The notes under the pieces were generated by a model that saw nothing but the letters and a program-made list of their open reading frames with translations, did not search any database and was not told where the DNA came from. This document shows, piece by piece, positions 4,637 through 37,048 of a stretch of DNA of 39,401 bases. The position numbers and the translations under genes are program-made. Where the stretch lies: the IMG/VR virus record IMGVR_UViG_3300033148_001982, positions 1 through 39,401 of that record. One strand, 5' to 3'. The stretch is from a virus. Position 1 is the stretch's first letter. The number at the start of each line of letters is the position of its first letter.

Positions 4637-4801
4637 ATGATTACTGAAGAATTACTAAAGGATATGATAGTAGATAGCAAAATTGGTGAATACGAAAAGG
4701 GGATTAAGCTAGAGTGTATTAAGATCGCTAGTAATTACGCCTTCGATGCATCGGATTTAATTATAAAGGCTAAGAAGCTCTATGACTTTATTTGCCTGTG
4801 A
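4637..4801 (+). CDS. Small helical hypothetical protein
   Basis: 54 residues from the ATG at 4637, entirely helical by residue pattern, acidic in the first third and basic near the end (KAKKLYDF). An A-rich stretch precedes the start. Not recognised. Its stop overlaps a possible GTG start for a 27-residue product. Confidence 0.5.
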   Translation: MITEELLKDMIVDSKIGEYEKGIKLECIKIASNYAFDASDLIIKAKKLYDFICL

Positions 4802-4881
4802 ACATATTTGATAATGTAAAGCTACGTGAAGTTAAAAAATCTACTCTGGTCGGAGAGAAGGTATTATCCTCTAGGAATTAG
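4798..4881 (+). CDS. Very small ORF, possibly 3'-truncated
   Basis: 27 residues from a GTG overlapping the previous stop (GTGA). The sequence looks protein-like (KLREVKKSTLVGEKVL), and beyond the TAG at 4879-4881 the same frame remains open for 19 more codons to a TGA at 4939-4941. Either the gene is short or a stop mutation has shortened it. TAG is used as a normal stop elsewhere here, so recoding is unlikely. Confidence 0.3.
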   Translation: MNIFDNVKLREVKKSTLVGEKVLSSRN

Positions 4882-5041
4882 CAAAGTCGAGTTTACGTAG
4901 TTGTTTTATCTCACGTCTCGGCAAAGGATAGTAAAGACTGACAGCAGGGAAATAGCCGCAGCCCTTTTTGGGTAAAATAAAGCAAATAAAAATAAGATAT
5001 GGAAGGTTTTTTACTAAATCGCCAACAAGATTAGATAAACT

Positions 5042-5224
5042 ATGATAGCGGTAGAAAGAATGCAACAAGACGTTTCGGATTATATCCTTAAAAAGAAGGG
5101 CGTGAGGGTTAATGTTAATATTAAGAAAGGGTTAGATAGTCGTAGCCCTTTCTTCCCAATAGATTATGCTCGCGAAGTAGCTAGGTTATTTGAGGCTTGG
5201 GTAAAAACTGACGGATTCTATTAA
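5042..5224 (+). CDS. Small hypothetical protein
   Basis: 60 residues. A basic, helix-leaning protein with a central strand-like piece (VRVNVNIKKG) and an aromatic C-terminal helix (VARLFEAWVKTDGFY). No recognised family. It closes the early gene cluster. The promoter of the chaperonin operon follows 17 nt after its stop. Confidence 0.6.
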   Translation: MIAVERMQQDVSDYILKKKGVRVNVNIKKGLDSRSPFFPIDYAREVARLFEAWVKTDGFY

Positions 5225-5241
5225 TATTAGATAAATTTTAC

Positions 5242-5249
5242 TATCTTTG
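5242..5249 (+). promoter_or_regulatory. -7 element of the chaperonin-operon promoter
   Basis: TATCTTTG is a perfect TAnnTTTG. The ATG at 5255 begins only 5 nt after it, so the first gene would have almost no leader. No palindrome and no clear -33 TTG are seen upstream, only a TTAGATA at 5227-5233. Internal genes of the operon have ATGA or short-gap starts and so do not depend on this leader. Confidence 0.6.
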
Positions 5250-5254
5250 CCAAA

Positions 5255-5536
5255 ATGAGCCACATTAGAGAAATACGAAAAATTACAATAGGTTTCGACC
5301 CAAAAGATGCTATGGTTTTCTTAGTAGGTCAAATAGCTGCAGGTGGAAAATCAGGTTATAGGGTAAGCTCAATAATTGAAGAGCAAAAACACTTTATATT
5401 ATTTGGAATAAAAAGATATAATGTATATATTGCAACCCTAAAAGGAGATGAAGTAATGTGGAAATCTTTCGAGGGTGTTCCCGTTACATTAGAATATAGC
5501 TTGCCTGGAGATGTAGAAGACATCACAGTAGGATAG
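5255..5536 (+). CDS. Hypothetical protein, first gene of the chaperonin operon
   Basis: 93 residues, beta-rich, with a glycine-containing turn (VGQIAAGGKSGYRV) and several alternating hydrophobic strands (HFILFGIKRYNVYIATL). No motif recognised and no membrane segment. It precedes the triple GroES-like gene by 16 nt, so a role connected with that operon is possible but unproven. Start codon and -7 element are only 5 nt apart, which suggests a leaderless or near-leaderless message. Confidence 0.65.
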   Translation: MSHIREIRKITIGFDPKDAMVFLVGQIAAGGKSGYRVSSIIEEQKHFILFGIKRYNVYIATLKGDEVMWKSFEGVPVTLEYSLPGDVEDITVG

Positions 5537-5552
5537 AATAAAATAAAACAGA

Positions 5553-6371
5553 TTGAGAACAGTAAAAGACATCTTTTTTGTAGATGCCGACTTTAATGCC
5601 AATAAGACTATGGATATTAAGGGGGCAGACGGTGAAAGGTTATACATTGATATAGATTTCGACCCCTACGCATACGCCACTCGGATAGGCGCTATTACGC
5701 ACACGCCACTAATCATAGGAGATAAGTATAAGTACCTTACTAAACTAGATAAGGGTGATATAGTCATTTTCCATCATTTTGTATGTCAGGAAGACAACAG
5801 AGTTATTGTTGATGGTAAACACTATTTTAAAGCAGACTTTTGCCACTTATTCGCTAAAATTAAGAATAATACAGTAACCCCCCTAGAACAGTTTATTTTT
5901 GTCCGACCTATTAAGGATGAGGTTAAGTTTATGGGGAAGTTACAAATAAGTTTTGAGGATAAGAATTTAAAGTCAACAGGGATTATTGAATATTTAAGCG
6001 AGGAAGCGAAGGGTGTTGGACTTAAAGTAGGGGATAAGGTGTTCTATACTAAGAATGCCGAGTATAAGATGAATATTCTTGGAACGGAATTTTATAGAAT
6101 GCGAATCCGTAATATTCTATTAGTTGAAAGGGATGGCGATTTAATATGTCTTAATGATAGGCTATTGTTGAAAGCTATTAAAAAGACGGGAATGTGGGTT
6201 ACAGGAAATGAAAAGGCATTAACGGCTGAGGTATGTGGAGTAATGGATGGCGAATCGCATATCGCGATAGGCGATATTATAGGTTATTCGAGGGGGCTAG
6301 ACTACCCAATAGAATATAAGGGAGTTGAATATTTACTAACGAGAAGAGAAAACGCAAATTATTTGGCATGA
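5553..6371 (+). CDS. Protein of three tandem GroES-like (Cpn10) domains
   Basis: 272 residues that can be read as three successive Cpn10 folds. Domain 1 (about 1-108) has the LDKGDIVIFHHF and VDGKHYFKADFCHLFAKI strands. Domain 2 (about 110-200) opens PLEQFIFVRPI, has a mobile-loop-like stretch, TGIIEYL, LKVGDKVFYTKN and LGTEFYRMRIRNILLV. Domain 3 (about 201-272) opens LNDRLLLKAI, then TAEVCGV, IAIGDIIGYSRG and YKGVEYLLTRREN. Each repeats the Cpn10 order: N-terminal strand, loop, G-x-V turn, (V/I)GD-x-(V/I), then a final (E/H)Y/F strand. Bacterial GroES is a single domain of about 97 residues and plant Cpn20 is a double. Translation is taken from the TTG at 5553, since a later ATG would cut into domain 1. 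It overlaps groES by ATGA. It may act as an altered or pseudo-symmetric lid for the phage GroEL. Confidence 0.7.
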   Translation: MRTVKDIFFVDADFNANKTMDIKGADGERLYIDIDFDPYAYATRIGAITHTPLIIGDKYKYLTKLDKGDIVIFHHFVCQEDNRVIVDGKHYFKADFCHLFAKIKNNTVTPLEQFIFVRPIKDEVKFMGKLQISFEDKNLKSTGIIEYLSEEAKGVGLKVGDKVFYTKNAEYKMNILGTEFYRMRIRNILLVERDGDLICLNDRLLLKAIKKTGMWVTGNEKALTAEVCGVMDGESHIAIGDIIGYSRGLDYPIEYKGVEYLLTRRENANYLA

Positions 6372-6664
6372 AAATAAAATCAATAATAGCAGCACCAACT
6401 TGTAATCGCATTTTAATAAAGCAAAGCGAGATAGAGCAAAAGATAGAAGGGATTCACGTTCCTGAGACAGCGATAAAAAAGCCTAGAAAAGGAATAGTGG
6501 TCGCTGCATCAGAAGAATATAAATGCCCAGCCAATGGGGTAGTAAAGCCAGTTATAGCGGTTGGAGATGTGGTAATGTATGAGAATCATACGGGAGTCGA
6601 AATAGAAATTGATGGCGAAGACTTTATTTTACTAAAAGAGCCTGACGCATTTGTAGTATTATGA
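6368..6664 (+). CDS. groES: Phage co-chaperonin GroES (Cpn10)
   Basis: 98 residues, the normal length for the family. An N-terminal strand CNRILIKQ is followed by a mobile-loop region (about 22-38) with the hydrophobic patch GIHVP that would contact GroEL. Next come GIVVAAS, a roof-loop stretch, the conserved VGDVVMYENHTGVEIEIDGEDFILLKE and a C-terminal strand. It acts as the seven-membered lid that closes the GroEL cage over substrate in the cytoplasm. The gene is translationally coupled on both sides (ATGA overlaps) and lies one gene upstream of the GroEL gene. It is divergent from bacterial GroES, so it is likely an old phage lineage and not a fresh host capture. Confidence 0.85.
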   Translation: MKIKSIIAAPTCNRILIKQSEIEQKIEGIHVPETAIKKPRKGIVVAASEEYKCPANGVVKPVIAVGDVVMYENHTGVEIEIDGEDFILLKEPDAFVVL

Positions 6665-6909
6665 GTAAAGCAGAAGAATTAGCAGAAAAGGTTTCGGAAG
6701 ACTTAATTAATCTAATTGGGCTTTATTTGGCTAATATAGGTAAGGATAAGGAAGCGAATGAAAAGCTATATGGGGAATTAGATAAAGAATGGAAAAAATA
6801 TGTTTATACTATTAATAATAGGCAGAAAGGGGTTAAGGTATCTCCGCAAGCGTTTGGATTAGAATTGAAAAAGAAATTAGAAGAATCACTAGAAAATAAA
6901 ATAAAATGA
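6661..6909 (+). CDS. Small helical protein between groES and groEL genes
   Basis: 82 residues, charged and predicted all-helical (EELAEKVSEDLINLI, LKKKLEESLENK), with no cysteine and no membrane segment. It is locked between the GroES and GroEL genes by ATGA overlaps at both ends, so it is made together with them. Not recognised. It could be a cofactor or adaptor for the chaperonin, or an unrelated passenger. Confidence 0.65.
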   Translation: MSKAEELAEKVSEDLINLIGLYLANIGKDKEANEKLYGELDKEWKKYVYTINNRQKGVKVSPQAFGLELKKKLEESLENKIK

Positions 6910-8540
6910 AAAGAAAAGTATTACAAGGAAAAGAAGCTAGAGAAAAGCTAATGAAAGGCGTTAACCTCGTTGCTGACGTTGTAGGTAAAACTATGGGTAG
7001 CAATGGTAAGACTGTTATGGTTAGCGATGGTAGGGATACTATCCCGTGGGTGACTAAGGATGGCATTTCTGTGGCTGCCTCAATACGGTCTGAAGATGAA
7101 ATAGAGAATGTAGGGGTTATGGCTATGAAGAATATTGGCGATAAAACCGTAATAGAAGCAGGAGATGGGACAACACAGACTATCGTATTGGGTCGAGCTA
7201 TGTTAAAAGAGGGTTATGCTAAGATAGACCAGGGCGCTCAATCCCAATCTGTAAAACGAGGGATGGACAAAGCTGTTTCTATTGTAGTTGACAAGGTTAA
7301 GGAGTTATCAGAGCCTATTAGCCATGATGATGAAAAGCTATTAAGTGTAGCGTCAATATCTGCTAATAATGACCCTGAGATAGGTGGTCTTATTGCTAAT
7401 GCTTATAGCAGAATAGGACCAAGTGGCTTACTTTCTATAGAATATTCTAAGACAGCAAAGACCTACACAGAAGTAGTTGACGGATTTGAGTTTGATAGAG
7501 GCTATCAACATGCGGGGTATGTTAATGTTCCTGAGAAGATGCAAGCTGTATATGAGAATCCTTTAATATTAGTGGCTGACTATGACCTTATAACCTTAAA
7601 AAGTATAGGGGAGATATTAAAGCCAATGCTAGAGTCTGAAAAGCCTATCATTATAATAGCAAAAGGGATTGAAGGCGAGGTATTCCAAACTCTCCTTTCC
7701 AATAAAGCACAACATGGAGTTAATGTTTGTACTATTAAAGCACCAAATAGATACCAAGAGGAATGTCTTAGCGATATAGCTGTAATGACAGGGGCTACAT
7801 TAATAACAGACAAAATCGGTCTTAAATTAGAAAGTATTAAGATGGAGCATTTAGGTACGTGCAGTAAAATTATAGTATCCAACGACACTACAAAAATTAT
7901 CGAAGGTAAGGGTGATAAAGATAAAATTAAAGCTAGAGAGGAAGAAGTTAGCGTATTGTTAGAGCAGTCTGATGACAGTTTAGTTAAAGATGAACACAGA
8001 AAGAGGTTGGCGCAACTTACTAGCAGTATTGGGGTTATCTATGTAGGAGCTTCGGGGGATTTAGAAGCAAAAGAAAAGCTAGACAGGGTTGATGATGCAG
8101 TTCGAGCGTCTAAGTCGGCTATTGAAGAAGGTATATGCTCAGGAGGAGGTGTAACATTACTTCGATGTATTAGCTCACTATATAGCGTAAAGTGTGATAA
8201 TGAAGATGAGCAGGATGGAGTGGATGTGATACGAATGGCGCTAGAAGTTCCTGCCCGACAAATACTAAAGAATGCCGAGGTATACCAAAATAAGTATATC
8301 CGATTATTGTCTAATTTAGTTGGAACTACACTAGAAAATCCTATGATAAAAAAGATTAAGGCAGAAAAGGGTGATATTGGATACAACGTAAAAACAATGA
8401 AAATGGAAAACCTTAAAGAGGCTGGTGTGATTGACCCTAGTAAAGTTATACGTGTTGCATTACAGAATGCTAATTCTATGGCTGGCTCTATGATAACTTC
8501 GGATAGTTTAATTGTTGATGTACTAGAAAAAAATGGATAA
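6906..8540 (+). CDS. groEL: Phage chaperonin GroEL (Cpn60)
   Basis: 544 residues, full family length (about 545). Conserved ATPase features are visible: the TMGSNGK loop in place of TLGPKGR (about 29-35), TKDGISVA (50-57), EAGDGTT with the aspartate at residue 87, the hinge/apical region with VDGFEFDRGY, DRVDDAV (catalytic aspartate of E. coli D398 type) and EEGICSGGG near residue 415. The substitution of P by S in the N-terminal loop and divergent apical residues set it apart from host enzymes. The C-terminus ends DVLEKNG without the GGM-repeat tail that bacterial GroEL extends into the cavity. It is an ATP-driven folding cage, working with the GroES-type products upstream. It probably serves phage virion proteins, which is inference from its place just upstream of the structural genes. 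Confidence 0.93.
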   Translation: MKRKVLQGKEAREKLMKGVNLVADVVGKTMGSNGKTVMVSDGRDTIPWVTKDGISVAASIRSEDEIENVGVMAMKNIGDKTVIEAGDGTTQTIVLGRAMLKEGYAKIDQGAQSQSVKRGMDKAVSIVVDKVKELSEPISHDDEKLLSVASISANNDPEIGGLIANAYSRIGPSGLLSIEYSKTAKTYTEVVDGFEFDRGYQHAGYVNVPEKMQAVYENPLILVADYDLITLKSIGEILKPMLESEKPIIIIAKGIEGEVFQTLLSNKAQHGVNVCTIKAPNRYQEECLSDIAVMTGATLITDKIGLKLESIKMEHLGTCSKIIVSNDTTKIIEGKGDKDKIKAREEEVSVLLEQSDDSLVKDEHRKRLAQLTSSIGVIYVGASGDLEAKEKLDRVDDAVRASKSAIEEGICSGGGVTLLRCISSLYSVKCDNEDEQDGVDVIRMALEVPARQILKNAEVYQNKYIRLLSNLVGTTLENPMIKKIKAEKGDIGYNVKTMKMENLKEAGVIDPSKVIRVALQNANSMAGSMITSDSLIVDVLEKNG

Positions 8541-8736: not shown

Positions 8737-8926
8737 AACTTATACTAACCTAGACCAGCTTGGGTCATTAAAGAAAGAGCTAGAACAGACTGAGAAAAAT
8801 ACGTCTTTGACTCAAAAGATTAACTGGGAAAGAGGTACGATAACTTGGGGAGATACAGGCGATTCTGATATAGTATATAGAACTAAAAGGAATTTTTGTA
8901 ATGAGGTTAAAAATAAAAAGAAATGA
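8729..8926 (+). CDS. Small hypothetical protein
   Basis: 65 residues with a helical, glutamate/lysine-rich first half and a short strand-forming part (GTITWGDTGDSDIVYRT). It overlaps both neighbours by 4-8 nt. No family recognised. Confidence 0.6.
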   Translation: MSKTYTNLDQLGSLKKELEQTEKNTSLTQKINWERGTITWGDTGDSDIVYRTKRNFCNEVKNKKK

Positions 8927-9273
8927 ATAGCGAAGAACAGGAAAAACATTTTCAGGCTTTTACAGAAAAGATTAGGAAAACCCAAATATCCAAACAGGGG
9001 GATTATGCTACATCTGATGTACTGTCCAACTTTAAGGTGGCTGGGGCTAACTGTGGATTAACTGCAGAAATGCAATGTCTATCACTAATTGCTACTAAAG
9101 TGGCTAGATTGGGCGTACTTTTGCAATCTCAGGATAGCCCTAACCATGAAAGTATTAGAGATTCTGTGCTGGATATGGCTAATTATTCTATTTTGTTGGA
9201 TATGATAATTGAGGATAAAGCACTCGAATTATTTCATAAATACGCTAAAATAAGGAATCTTAAATCAATTTAG
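8923..9273 (+). CDS. DUF1599/MazG-like phage protein
   Basis: 116 residues, all-helical. The order KQGDYAT, then LSNFK, then ATKVARL, then HESIRDSVLDMANYSILLDMI matches the DUF1599 group (also called nucleotide-modification-associated domain 1), where a lysine/aspartate pair in helix 1 and an (E)SI-x-D-x-x-D-x-x-NY motif in a later helix are conserved. The fold resembles all-alpha NTP pyrophosphatases, so a role in nucleotide metabolism or modification is possible. Acidic residues expected of a metal site are partly present (D, E, D). It is the last gene of the chaperonin operon. The next promoter follows within a few nucleotides. Confidence 0.6.
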   Translation: MNSEEQEKHFQAFTEKIRKTQISKQGDYATSDVLSNFKVAGANCGLTAEMQCLSLIATKVARLGVLLQSQDSPNHESIRDSVLDMANYSILLDMIIEDKALELFHKYAKIRNLKSI

Positions 9274-10185: not shown

Positions 10186-10545
10186 ATGGAAAAACCTAAG
10201 AAAATCCCAAAGGACGTAGCCCCCTATGTCGAATATTTAGAGGAGAGAGTAAAGAAGTTTGAAAGCTCCCCTTACGTAACTTCATATATATCACTACTTA
10301 ATCAAATAGATAATTGGAATAAGCAGTTGTCAGATAAACCAATAGACCTTTTCGCGGAAAGTACCGATAAGTCCTTTGATAGAGCGCATAAATACTTTAC
10401 CGAGCAAACCCCATATTTTGAACAACTAGCATATCTTAGGAAGCAGATGTCTCCTGAAGAGAAAGTTGAAGTGGAGGCTGTTGTAAGAAAGAAGAAAGAA
10501 AGAATAGCAATAGCAGAAAAGATAGCGCAGAATGGCAGAGTTTGA
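10186..10545 (+). CDS. Putative small terminase subunit
   Basis: 119 residues, highly charged and helical (PKDVAPYVEYLEERVKKF, EEKVEVEAVVRKKKERIAIAEKIAQ). Position immediately before, and overlapping by 14 nt, the large terminase gene is the usual place of the small subunit, which recognises phage DNA for packaging. A clear HTH was not seen, so the call rests on position and size. The ATG at 10186 is chosen because an in-frame TTG upstream falls inside the -7 promoter element. Confidence 0.5.
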   Translation: MEKPKKIPKDVAPYVEYLEERVKKFESSPYVTSYISLLNQIDNWNKQLSDKPIDLFAESTDKSFDRAHKYFTEQTPYFEQLAYLRKQMSPEEKVEVEAVVRKKKERIAIAEKIAQNGRV

Positions 10546-12793
10546 TTTATATAAAGGGTTAATATATACCACTCCAAAACAGCCGAAAAGAAAGGATATT
10601 CAAGGAGTTGACTTGCCTAAAAAGAAACAAAAGTGGTTTAGAACCGAAATTCCAAAACATTTTGATGCATTATATGAAGAGCTTGACCTTCTTGGTGGTC
10701 AAATATTAGAGATAGAGAAAGCCTGTCAAAAACTAGACGATAAACTACAAGTCGAGTCTAACAAGAAAAATAAATCCGCAGAAAAAATAGCTAAATATAA
10801 TGAAGAATTAGATGACGCTTATAGCTTAATTAATATAAAAGTTGACAAGAGTAATAAGATTGAAGAGGAGATAGAAATTTTTGCTTTTGAGGAAGATAGA
10901 AAATGCACAGAAGGGATGTGGTTTTTTAATAATGGAATCCCAACGTATATTAATGGCGACCACTATCATTATCTTAACTGGTTTAAATTGGATGTCGGGT
11001 ATCCTCAGTTCAGGGATAGAGATAAAAGATGGTTTTTTCATTGGGAGATTTGCGATAAGGATGAAGAGTGTTTAGGTCAAATTTACGGGAAGCAACGTAG
11101 AGATGGTTATTCTTTTAGGGTAGTTTCTGTTATGTATAATAGGGCTAGAAAGACTTTCAATGCCAATTATGGTATAATGTCTAAATCTAAAGTGGATTCA
11201 CAAGAAATGTTTAAAAAAGGTGTCGATGCCTTTATGGAATACCCTCGCTTCTTTAAACCACAACTTCAAAACTCTGAAGATGTTAAGCAGAGAATGGTGT
11301 TTAAGACTCCACAACAAAAAATAACTTACAAGACTAGAGTAACAAAAAAAGAGGTTTCATTGAATACTATCATTGATAGCCACCCTACTACCGAAAATGC
11401 TATGGATGGTAGTGCTAGAAAGATAATAGGGTGTGATGAGGCTGCTAAATTTCCAAAAGATGTCAAGCTATTAAAGTGGTATGCTATTGGTAAGATATGT
11501 TGCCTCTTAGGAATGAAAAATATAAACGGTAAAATGCTGATGGGTTCTACTGTTAATGACTTCGAGAATGGTGGAGAGGATTTTATGATATTGTGGGCAT
11601 TATCACTTCATAGCAATAAAACAGAGAATAATAGAACAGACAGTTGGATGTATAGATATTTTGTTGATTGTGCTGACGGAATGGAAGGCTTTGTGGATGA
11701 GTATGGAATGAGTGTTATGGAAACGCCTGAAGTTCCCATTATGGGAATAGACGGGAAGCTAATAACTGTTGGCTCAATAGATTACATAACAAAAGAATTA
11801 GCAGCTAAAAAGAAGTCTGGAGATTCTGTAGGGTATTATGAGCTTAGACGGCAGTTCCCTAGAGTAGAAGATGATATGTTTATCACTCCTGCTGACGAAA
11901 AGACCTGTTGGGACATTGAAAAGATATATCAACAAATTGAACATAACGATATTCACGACATAGAAAAAACTCTTCACTGTGGATATTTTAGTTGGGCTAA
12001 TGGAGTTAGAGATAGTACTGTTGTATGGAACTCGCTACCTTATGACGACCCGATGGTAAAGCATAGATTTGCTTGGATGCCTCAGCCTGCCGATTGTAAT
12101 AAGTGGGAATTAAAAAATGGGAAGAAAGCACCATCAAACACCCATATAGGTGTGTTTACATTGGATCCTTATGCAGCAAAGAATACAACAGATAAGAGAA
12201 AATCTAAAGCGGCATCTCATGGATTTAGAAAGTTCGATTCTTTGGGAGATAAAAATATTAGCGATGTTTTCATTATGGAATACTGGAATAGGCTAAAAGA
12301 CCCTTTGTTAGTATATGAAGATATGATATTACAATGCGTATACTTTGGGTGGAAATTACTTCCTGAGCGTAACGTAAAAAACTGTAACGACTATTTTAGA
12401 AATAGGGAATATGATAATTATTTAATGCAACCACCTCGAATGACGCAAGAGGAGTTTATGGCTAAAATTGACAAGAAGGAGGATGCGGGCTTGGCGAATA
12501 CTGCAGGAAAGACTCAGCAGCAGATGGTTGAATATCAAGCTAGTTATATTACAAACCATATTGGGGTTAACGAGAAGACGGGGGAAATGGGCTATATGCC
12601 ATTCAATAACACACTAAAAGATTGGCTAATTTTTGATATTGACAAGTGGACTCCCTACGATTTAACTATAAGTTCAATGTTAGCTTGTATGGCTCGTAGT
12701 GCTGTAACTCATCTTACGCCAAGAAAGAAGATTAAAATAGACTTTTTCAAATCCTACGACAACAGCGGCATAGAGAGTCGCGAGATTAAATAG
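10532..12793 (+). CDS. terL: Large terminase subunit (packaging ATPase/nuclease)
   Basis: 753 residues, long for the family because of a coiled-coil N-terminal extension (about 45-115). The ATPase part has a deviant P-loop around GKQRRDGYS (about 186-194), Walker B IIGCDEAAK with D-E near 304-305, and a coupling motif MLMGSTV. The nuclease part starts with VFTLDPYA (about 540-550), a first metal-binding aspartate. ILQCVYFGWKLLPERN follows as the second site, and the remaining acidic residues lie further down. It drives DNA into the prohead and cuts the concatemer. It resembles large terminases of Bacteroidota podoviruses in length and in the RR-x-G type P-loop. It lies between its putative small subunit and a minus-strand gene. 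Confidence 0.9.
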   Translation: MAEFDLYKGLIYTTPKQPKRKDIQGVDLPKKKQKWFRTEIPKHFDALYEELDLLGGQILEIEKACQKLDDKLQVESNKKNKSAEKIAKYNEELDDAYSLINIKVDKSNKIEEEIEIFAFEEDRKCTEGMWFFNNGIPTYINGDHYHYLNWFKLDVGYPQFRDRDKRWFFHWEICDKDEECLGQIYGKQRRDGYSFRVVSVMYNRARKTFNANYGIMSKSKVDSQEMFKKGVDAFMEYPRFFKPQLQNSEDVKQRMVFKTPQQKITYKTRVTKKEVSLNTIIDSHPTTENAMDGSARKIIGCDEAAKFPKDVKLLKWYAIGKICCLLGMKNINGKMLMGSTVNDFENGGEDFMILWALSLHSNKTENNRTDSWMYRYFVDCADGMEGFVDEYGMSVMETPEVPIMGIDGKLITVGSIDYITKELAAKKKSGDSVGYYELRRQFPRVEDDMFITPADEKTCWDIEKIYQQIEHNDIHDIEKTLHCGYFSWANGVRDSTVVWNSLPYDDPMVKHRFAWMPQPADCNKWELKNGKKAPSNTHIGVFTLDPYAAKNTTDKRKSKAASHGFRKFDSLGDKNISDVFIMEYWNRLKDPLLVYEDMILQCVYFGWKLLPERNVKNCNDYFRNREYDNYLMQPPRMTQEEFMAKIDKKEDAGLANTAGKTQQQMVEYQASYITNHIGVNEKTGEMGYMPFNNTLKDWLIFDIDKWTPYDLTISSMLACMARSAVTHLTPRKKIKIDFFKSYDNSGIESREIK

Positions 12794-36241: not shown

Positions 36242-37048
36242 ATGATACACCCTTTCAATCATGGAATTTGGGATTCTTCTGTTACTACGAGTCCATTTGT
36301 TATGTCAATTAAGACTGATAACACAAGCGCAGGGTCATCAGGGTCTGAGCAGTTTAGGCTTCCATTAAAGTCTACGGGAACCTATAATTTTAATGTATTT
36401 TGGGGTGATGGAACTTCCGACTCTATAACAGCATGGAATCAAACAGAAAAAACCCATACATACCCTGGTTCGGGAACTTATGAGGTTAGAATATTTGGAG
36501 TTTGTGACCATATATACTTTAATTCCGTTGGGTCTGAGGATGTACTAAAACTATTAGATATTACCCAATGGGGGGATGTTGTAGTGGCGAGTATGAATCA
36601 CTCGTATAAGTCGTGCCTCAATCTTGTTGGAACATGGACTGATTTTCCTGTTTTTTCTGGAGGAGTAGCTACAGGTATATCATTTAATAACGCCTTCTCT
36701 GGTTGTTCAGCACTATCAAACACAGTATTCCCTAGTTGGACTATGGGAGACTTAGGGGATTGCACTCAAATGTTTAAAGATTGTACATCTCTTAACGTAA
36801 ACATAGGCTCATGGGATATTACGGGGTTTAATATAGACCTAACTCTTTTTATGGACAACACCGCTTTAACTACAGTTAATTATGATGCTATCCTGATAGC
36901 TTTTGCAGCACAAGGAGTGACCGTTCCGACAGGAAACACTTTTGACGTAGGCTCAACACAGTATACTATAGCCACATCAGGATCGTCTAGGGCAACACTA
37001 GTTGGTGCGCCTGGGTCTTGGACAATTAATGATGGAGGTGGAATATAA
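36242..37048 (+). CDS. Adhesin with PKD-like strand pair and BspA-type repeats
   Basis: 268 residues. The segment about 37-85 has FNVFWGDGTSDSIT and THTYPGSGTYEVRIFGVCDHI, the W-G-D-G-(T/S) and H-x-Y-x-x-(P)-G-x-Y-x-V signature of PKD domains. About 95-230 are short repeats of 20-25 residues with CLNLVGTWTDFPVF, FNNAFSGCSALSNTVFPSWTMG, CTQMFKDCTSLNVNIGSWDITG, matching the BspA/DUF285 leucine-rich surface-protein repeat (F-x-x-C-x-x-L). These are common in surface proteins of Bacteroidota and gut parasites. Probably a host-binding protein on the virion. It lies between fibre genes and connector genes. Confidence 0.75.
   Translation: MIHPFNHGIWDSSVTTSPFVMSIKTDNTSAGSSGSEQFRLPLKSTGTYNFNVFWGDGTSDSITAWNQTEKTHTYPGSGTYEVRIFGVCDHIYFNSVGSEDVLKLLDITQWGDVVVASMNHSYKSCLNLVGTWTDFPVFSGGVATGISFNNAFSGCSALSNTVFPSWTMGDLGDCTQMFKDCTSLNVNIGSWDITGFNIDLTLFMDNTALTTVNYDAILIAFAAQGVTVPTGNTFDVGSTQYTIATSGSSRATLVGAPGSWTINDGGGI

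Follow-up and report, generated by a model that had tools for sequence, protein, structure and literature searches.

A virus gene in the analysed window, a record of 39.4 kb, encodes a 272-aa protein that almost certainly consists of three head-to-tail Cpn10 (GroES-like) domains. The protein derives, as an elaboration, from a two-domain phage Cpn10 that is linked to the terminase across an entire clade. Three-domain homologues were recovered from three further metagenomic phages, L172, L251 and L252, in the same gene block with GroES and GroEL. Compared with the known Cpn20 and the two-domain phage Cpn10, the three-domain form appears new among the sequence collections searched and within a partial coverage of the literature, where nothing relevant on three-domain Cpn10 proteins was found. 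We consider it likely that the protein acts as a component of a GroEL lid.

Chaperonin gene block of the window

The block consists of five successive genes in one direction, for a 93-aa protein, the triple Cpn10 protein, GroES, an 82-aa protein and GroEL (Table 1). From the triple gene through GroEL, each pair of neighbours overlaps by 4 nt, in agreement with the overlapping reading frames of an initial sequence-only reading. Judged by this gene overlap, the chaperonin genes may share one transcript. The promoter motif TANNTTTG occurs at 47 sites in the window against 47 expected, a frequency equal to chance, and no operon claim is built on it. One TANNTTTG site lies at 5242-5249, just ahead of the gene for the 93-aa protein. 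The genes for the terminase large subunit (TerL) and the portal follow further downstream, with TerL located ~4.2 kb from the triple gene and GroES and GroEL in between. The normal GroES and the full GroEL proposed in the sequence-only reading were both recovered by Pfam. The absence of a GGM tail from GroEL was likewise borne out, as its C-terminus reads ...DVLEKNG.

Table 1. Positions of the chaperonin-block genes, the Cpn10 domains and the terminase gene in the window.
Feature	Position	Strand	Evidence and remarks
93-aa small protein, IRKITIG type	5255..5536	+	conserved gene directly upstream of the Cpn10 fusion
272-aa triple Cpn10 (GroES-like) protein, TTG start	5553..6371	+	Pfam, PHROG, hhalign, AlphaFold
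Cpn10 domain 1, residues 1-105	5553..5867	+	predicted fold, hhalign; LYI triad, HHFVC motif, shortened roof
Cpn10 domain 2, residues 106-194	5868..6134	+	Pfam and fold match; loop GKLQI, VGDKV strand
Cpn10 domain 3, residues 195-272	6135..6368	+	hhalign, AlphaFold; loop TGMWVTG, IGDII strand, apparently no roof hairpin
98-aa single-domain GroES	6368..6664	+	Pfam Cpn10 E 2.6e-15; full-length roof segment, mobile loop EGIHVPE
82-aa protein	6661..6909	+	without family match; absent from the conserved set of other triple phages
544-aa GroEL, without GGM tail	6906..8540	+	Pfam Cpn60_TCP1 E 1.3e-52; phrog_5725 E 2.4e-127
Terminase large subunit (TerL)	10532..12793	+	phrog_6681 E 3.2e-111; conserved gene downstream of the Cpn10 fusion

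Sequence and profile evidence for three Cpn10 domains

The triple Cpn10-like protein recognized in the sequence-only reading is upheld by sequence, profiles, predicted fold and the three independent relatives. The Pfam Cpn10 model (PF00166) matches it with 34.1 bits (E 2.9e-8; gathering cut-off 21.1 bits), all of which stem from domain 2 (residues 108-191). Domains 1 and 3 of the window protein have no Pfam match by themselves. In the relatives L251 and L252, the same model matches domain 3 at E 0.0024 and E 0.008, respectively, both below the cut-off. PHROG 13932, a family of two-domain phage GroES proteins, spans residues 8-192 (E 2.3e-20). Profile comparison of each third by hhalign against 47 phage GroES proteins gave 97.6% for domain 3 (a profile of four sequences), 97.2% for domain 2 and a weaker 70.7% for domain 1. 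Reversed GroES used as a control reached 0.2-0.7% (0.2% for domain 3). The corresponding scores are 63.5, 58.8 and 30.5 for domains 3, 2 and 1; the highest values from 60 column shuffles per domain were 18.1, 15.7 and 18.8, nowhere near the observed ones. With domain 3 alone as query, phmmer found only a weak match to 2i52 in the PDB (E 0.099), which we took as chance.

The (V/I)GD-x-(V/I) strand had been described for every domain. It is present in domains 2 and 3 as VGDKV and IGDII, but domain 1 reads KGDIV, with a lysine at the first position. Hydrophobic triads can be read from the loop sequences of all three domains (LYI, LQI and MWV in domains 1, 2 and 3). At the position of the GroES triad IVL, domain 1 carries at least two hydrophobic residues in all 85 rows of the family alignment. 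As read from the sequence, the loop of domain 3 has no clear hydrophobic triad in L172 and L252. Domain 1 also contains the motif HHFVC, corresponding to a nearly invariant HHNVF in the family, which is not a GroES signature. Judged from alignment and model, domains 1 and 2 have short roof segments and domain 3 has the shortest. By sequence, domain 1 is the weakest case of the three, its assignment leaning mainly on the predicted fold.

Predicted structure

A first AlphaFold run produced confident barrels for domains 1 and 2, with residues 217-272 below a pLDDT of 50 because the alignment held no domain 3 homologues. A second run, with an alignment of the other triple proteins and GroES rows, predicted a barrel for domain 3 with a mean pLDDT of 84.5 that was lowest at the mobile loop. 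Since this fold was partly guided by the GroES rows, the independent support for domain 3 is the profile comparison. The triple protein has a predicted beta-barrel in all three thirds, each matching GroES structures. Domain 1 aligns with GroES 5opx (Z 9.5, 87 residues), domain 2 with 1wnr (Z 8.8) and domain 3 again with 5opx (Z 11.1, 75 residues, rmsd 2.9). Cpn10 proteins fill the first 16 rows of the structure search with domain 3, after which Z drops to 6.2.

Neighbouring subunits of a GroES ring touch through the last strand of one and the first strand of the other. The model of the triple protein has hairpins at both domain junctions (strands 99-104/107-110 and 188-193/196-199), so the fused domains could occupy adjacent places of such a ring. 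The chain of the window protein stops at its last strand, leaving an edge to which another subunit could bind. The best solved-structure match of residues 1-193 is the Chlamydomonas Cpn20 chain 7ekq_R (Foldseek E 2e-6; Z 11.8, 167 residues). The entry 7ekq, a chloroplast ClpP entry by title, contains two Cpn20 chains, one Chaperonin 11 chain and a chain Q that is 205 residues long. Provided that Q represents a single two-domain chain, 7ekq would be a structural precedent for a mixed ring of 2+2+2+1=7 domains.

Triple-domain proteins in other phages

L172 was retrieved by a GroEL-based search, and L251 and L252 by a search with an alignment of the L172 and window proteins. Ahead of its GroES gene, L172 carries an open reading frame of 288 aa with the same domain make-up as the window protein. 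L251 and L252 match along residues 1-271 at 34-35% identity. Common to all four phages is a gene order of small protein, triple Cpn10, GroES, GroEL, a protein of ~190-250 aa, a protein of ~120-140 aa and TerL. Single-sequence searches with two of the window proteins found no related loci, and alignments were needed. Among 50,697 phage records, tblastn produced no match covering 80% of the triple protein, and a scan of bacterial and archaeal genomes with the triple alignment found no relative.

Domain 3 evolves fastest, with 22-39% identity against 34-59% for domains 1 and 2. In a midpoint-rooted TerL tree, thinned to 14 rows with L252 merged with a near relative, the triple phages form one fully supported group placed among two-domain phages. 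With this root, a single gain of domain 3 is the simplest reading. The domain 3 profile is closer to GroES (score 63.5) than to domain 2 of the family (45.3), which makes a fusion with, or a duplication of, the adjacent GroES gene a plausible origin on profile similarity.

A clade-wide two-domain Cpn10 linked to the terminase

The architecture and the GroES/GroEL neighbourhood of the triple protein were described correctly in the sequence-only reading, which missed its descent from a clade-wide two-domain Cpn10. The clade with the two-domain protein comprises Callevirus, Elemovirus and many uncultured phages, and its cultured members are Cellulophaga phage phi38:1 and a Flavobacterium Elemovirus. 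Of the contigs retrieved by TerL, all 57 with more than 1.5 kb of upstream sequence, and all 66 with more than 0.9 kb, carry a two-domain Cpn10 homologue upstream of TerL. A small IRKITIG-type protein is encoded directly upstream of the Cpn10 fusion in 131 of the 137 loci with enough sequence; the window homologue has no PHROG match. The PHROG 13932 proteins (phi38:1 gp089 and Elemovirus gp30) share homology across both domains and the location upstream of TerL. They end after domain 2 (~180-205 aa), whereas the window phage and the three others add domain 3 and, unlike these relatives, place the fusion gene directly before GroES and GroEL. The cpn10 gene has been listed as a core gene of Pervagoviridae, beside structural genes (PMC8776804).

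Among 28 records of two-domain-clade phages, GroEL is encoded in 17, and each of these also has the two-domain protein plus a separate GroES of one domain; since most of the related contigs are fragments, the absence of GroEL from some of them is uninformative. In the 72.8-kb IMG/VR record G021 (the record of locus L144), a two-domain Cpn10 and a single GroES were found and GroEL was not detected; this phage may use the GroEL of its host. The domain 2 loop is shorter in most two-domain relatives, thus not every domain need bind GroEL. The separate GroES of many two-domain phages (L033, L054, L059, L084 and related loci) is only ~85 aa long and lacks the roof segment.

Comparison with known co-chaperonins

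The Cpn20 of chloroplasts and apicoplasts resembles the triple protein in its head-to-tail Cpn10 domains and, in chloroplast systems, in the separate single-domain Cpn10 encoded by the same genome. Cpn20 has exactly two Cpn10 domains, whereas the window protein has three. The triple protein further differs in being phage-encoded, in its linkage to phage GroEL and terminase genes, in the HHNVF-type motif and in its reduced roof hairpins. Mixed Cpn10/Cpn20 lids of plants and functional concatemers of six to eight domains are established (PMC5780408, PMC4242682). T4 gp31 is likewise a phage co-chaperonin, and it aligns with the models of domain 2 (Z 7.9) and domain 3 (Z 8.2). It replaces the host GroES and lacks roof loops, and its chamber is slightly larger (PMC6318259); the roofs of the fusion look short. 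Unlike the triple protein, gp31 has a single domain, forms a homo-heptamer and works with host GroEL. Immutovirus encodes its own GroEL and single GroES as the window phage does, but has only one Cpn10 match.

A candidate mixed lid and its alternatives

We suggest that the triple protein is probably a fused lid subunit of the Cpn20 kind, which together with the GroES of the phage would cap the phage GroEL. Both the GroEL ring and the single GroES would be supplied by the phage. The fusion might fill several adjacent places of the lid ring, with a tight turn linking the last strand of each domain to the first strand of its neighbour. The strands left free at its two ends could then pair with GroES or with another copy of the fusion. 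Given the precedent of plant Cpn10/Cpn20 and 7ekq, the simplest closed lid would contain two fusions and one GroES (3+3+1=7), and the lid of the two-domain relatives would follow as 2+2+2+1. Domains 1 and 2 would bear the loops that contact GroEL. The least conserved domain, domain 3, also has the shortest roof and might be partly a spacer. GroEL binding reportedly needs at least four working loops out of seven (PMC4242682). The shortened roofs could open up the dome in the manner of T4 gp31, making room for large structural proteins of the phage as candidate substrates.

These parts differ in how firmly they can be held. Co-assembly into a mixed ring with the phage GroES is a serious possibility that we hold at slightly below even. 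A stoichiometry of exactly 3+3+1 is doubtful. Equally tentative is the fuller proposal of a natural 3+3+1 ring that evolved from a clade-wide 2+2+2+1 lid, with its domains dividing the tasks of binding GroEL, spacing and touching the substrate. A mixed or symmetry-matching lid is nevertheless better motivated than before because all 17 GroEL-bearing relatives keep a single GroES and both domain junctions are tight turns. Counting against the lid proposal are the fast evolution of domain 3, its unclear triad in L172 and L252 and the shorter domain 2 loop of most two-domain relatives. The clade-wide TerL linkage also counts against it, since a packaging or head role unrelated to GroEL could be involved, as does G021 with both co-chaperonins and no detected GroEL.

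The triple protein could alternatively form a homo-oligomeric lid of its own, with the single GroES assembling into a separate conventional heptamer for other substrates. Two copies would provide six domains and leave one GroEL subunit uncapped, or three copies would assemble with some domains excluded. Seven-fold GroEL does work in vitro with six- and eight-domain GroES concatemers and with Cpn20 homo-oligomers (PMC5780408). In phi38:1, different operons on opposite strands carry the two-domain gene and GroES-GroEL, hence a fixed ratio would not be needed. However, the genes are adjacent and co-directional in the triple clade, and the separate GroES in every GroEL-positive record fits an obligatory partner at least as well; we consider two alternative lids unlikely. 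The fusion might also mainly re-lid the host GroEL in the manner of gp31, leaving phage GroEL and GroES to serve separately. Host GroES is replaced by gp31, with an enlarged cage and missing roof loops (PMC6318259); the fusion roofs look short too, and G021 would suit such a takeover. Yet the window phage, like most of the long relatives, has a GroEL gene of its own, and we regard this explanation as improbable, more so than any other functional alternative considered.

The constant location upstream of TerL (57/57) could point instead to a GroES-derived assembly or packaging factor that is independent of GroEL and acts with TerL or the head, or to a cap for another ring such as Clp protease. 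The nearly invariant HHNVF motif, the core-gene status of cpn10 beside structural genes in Pervagoviridae (PMC8776804) and the ClpP entry 7ekq as the best structure match, with Cpn10 rings able to sit on other partners, are consistent with such an exaptation. The loop triad retained in domain 1, the genetic co-occurrence with GroES and GroEL and the presence of both within the same gene block of the triple clade argue the other way, and we consider exaptation unlikely, slightly more so than two alternative lids. An accidental in-frame fusion, a misassembly or a non-Cpn10 tail in the place of domain 3 would fit the missing Pfam match of the window domain 3 by itself. Three independent contigs of similar length and the same layout, together with the profile and fold evidence for domain 3, make an artefact a negligible prospect.

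The mixed-lid proposal touches on the long-standing symmetry problem of Cpn20, in which even-numbered sets of domains meet a seven-fold chaperonin. Related phages with their own GroEL and with lid genes of one, two and three domains make both the ring arithmetic and the roles of individual domains directly testable. The clade-wide two-domain Cpn10 beside the terminase suggests that this large phage group, most of it uncultured, relies on a dedicated chaperonin lid as a core part of assembling the head.

Companion genes and further observations

The 82-aa protein had been read as a helical protein within the chaperonin operon. By BLASTP it is unrelated to the 133-aa protein beside GroES in L252, and it is not conserved in the other triple phages. 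The genes inserted between the triple gene, GroES and GroEL vary among triple phages, which places the 82-aa protein outside the conserved module. In L172, the inserted genes include an IS1595-type transposase and a DNA methylase; the segment at 4793-6691 between GroES and GroEL holds the transposase, a small open reading frame and an N6/N4 DNA methylase.

The closest solved chain to the window GroEL is an ancestral Fibrobacteres-Chlorobi-Bacteroidetes (FCB) chaperonin (9rwr, E 5.6e-121). The host of the virus is probably a member of Bacteroidota, judging from the relatives and the Bacteroidota-like GroEL. Compared with the ancestral FCB chaperonin, GroEL has an insertion of ~16 residues in the equatorial domain (residues ~457-473), at a site near the ring-ring meeting point of E. 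coli GroEL. The insertion is apparently absent in L172. Elsewhere in the window, positions 8923-9273 have a weak match to DUF1599, a nucleotide modification associated domain (E 0.0004, below the cut-off), and positions 36242-37048 encode a DUF285 domain (E 5.8e-6). A DUF285 protein is also annotated near GroEL in the Elemovirus record.
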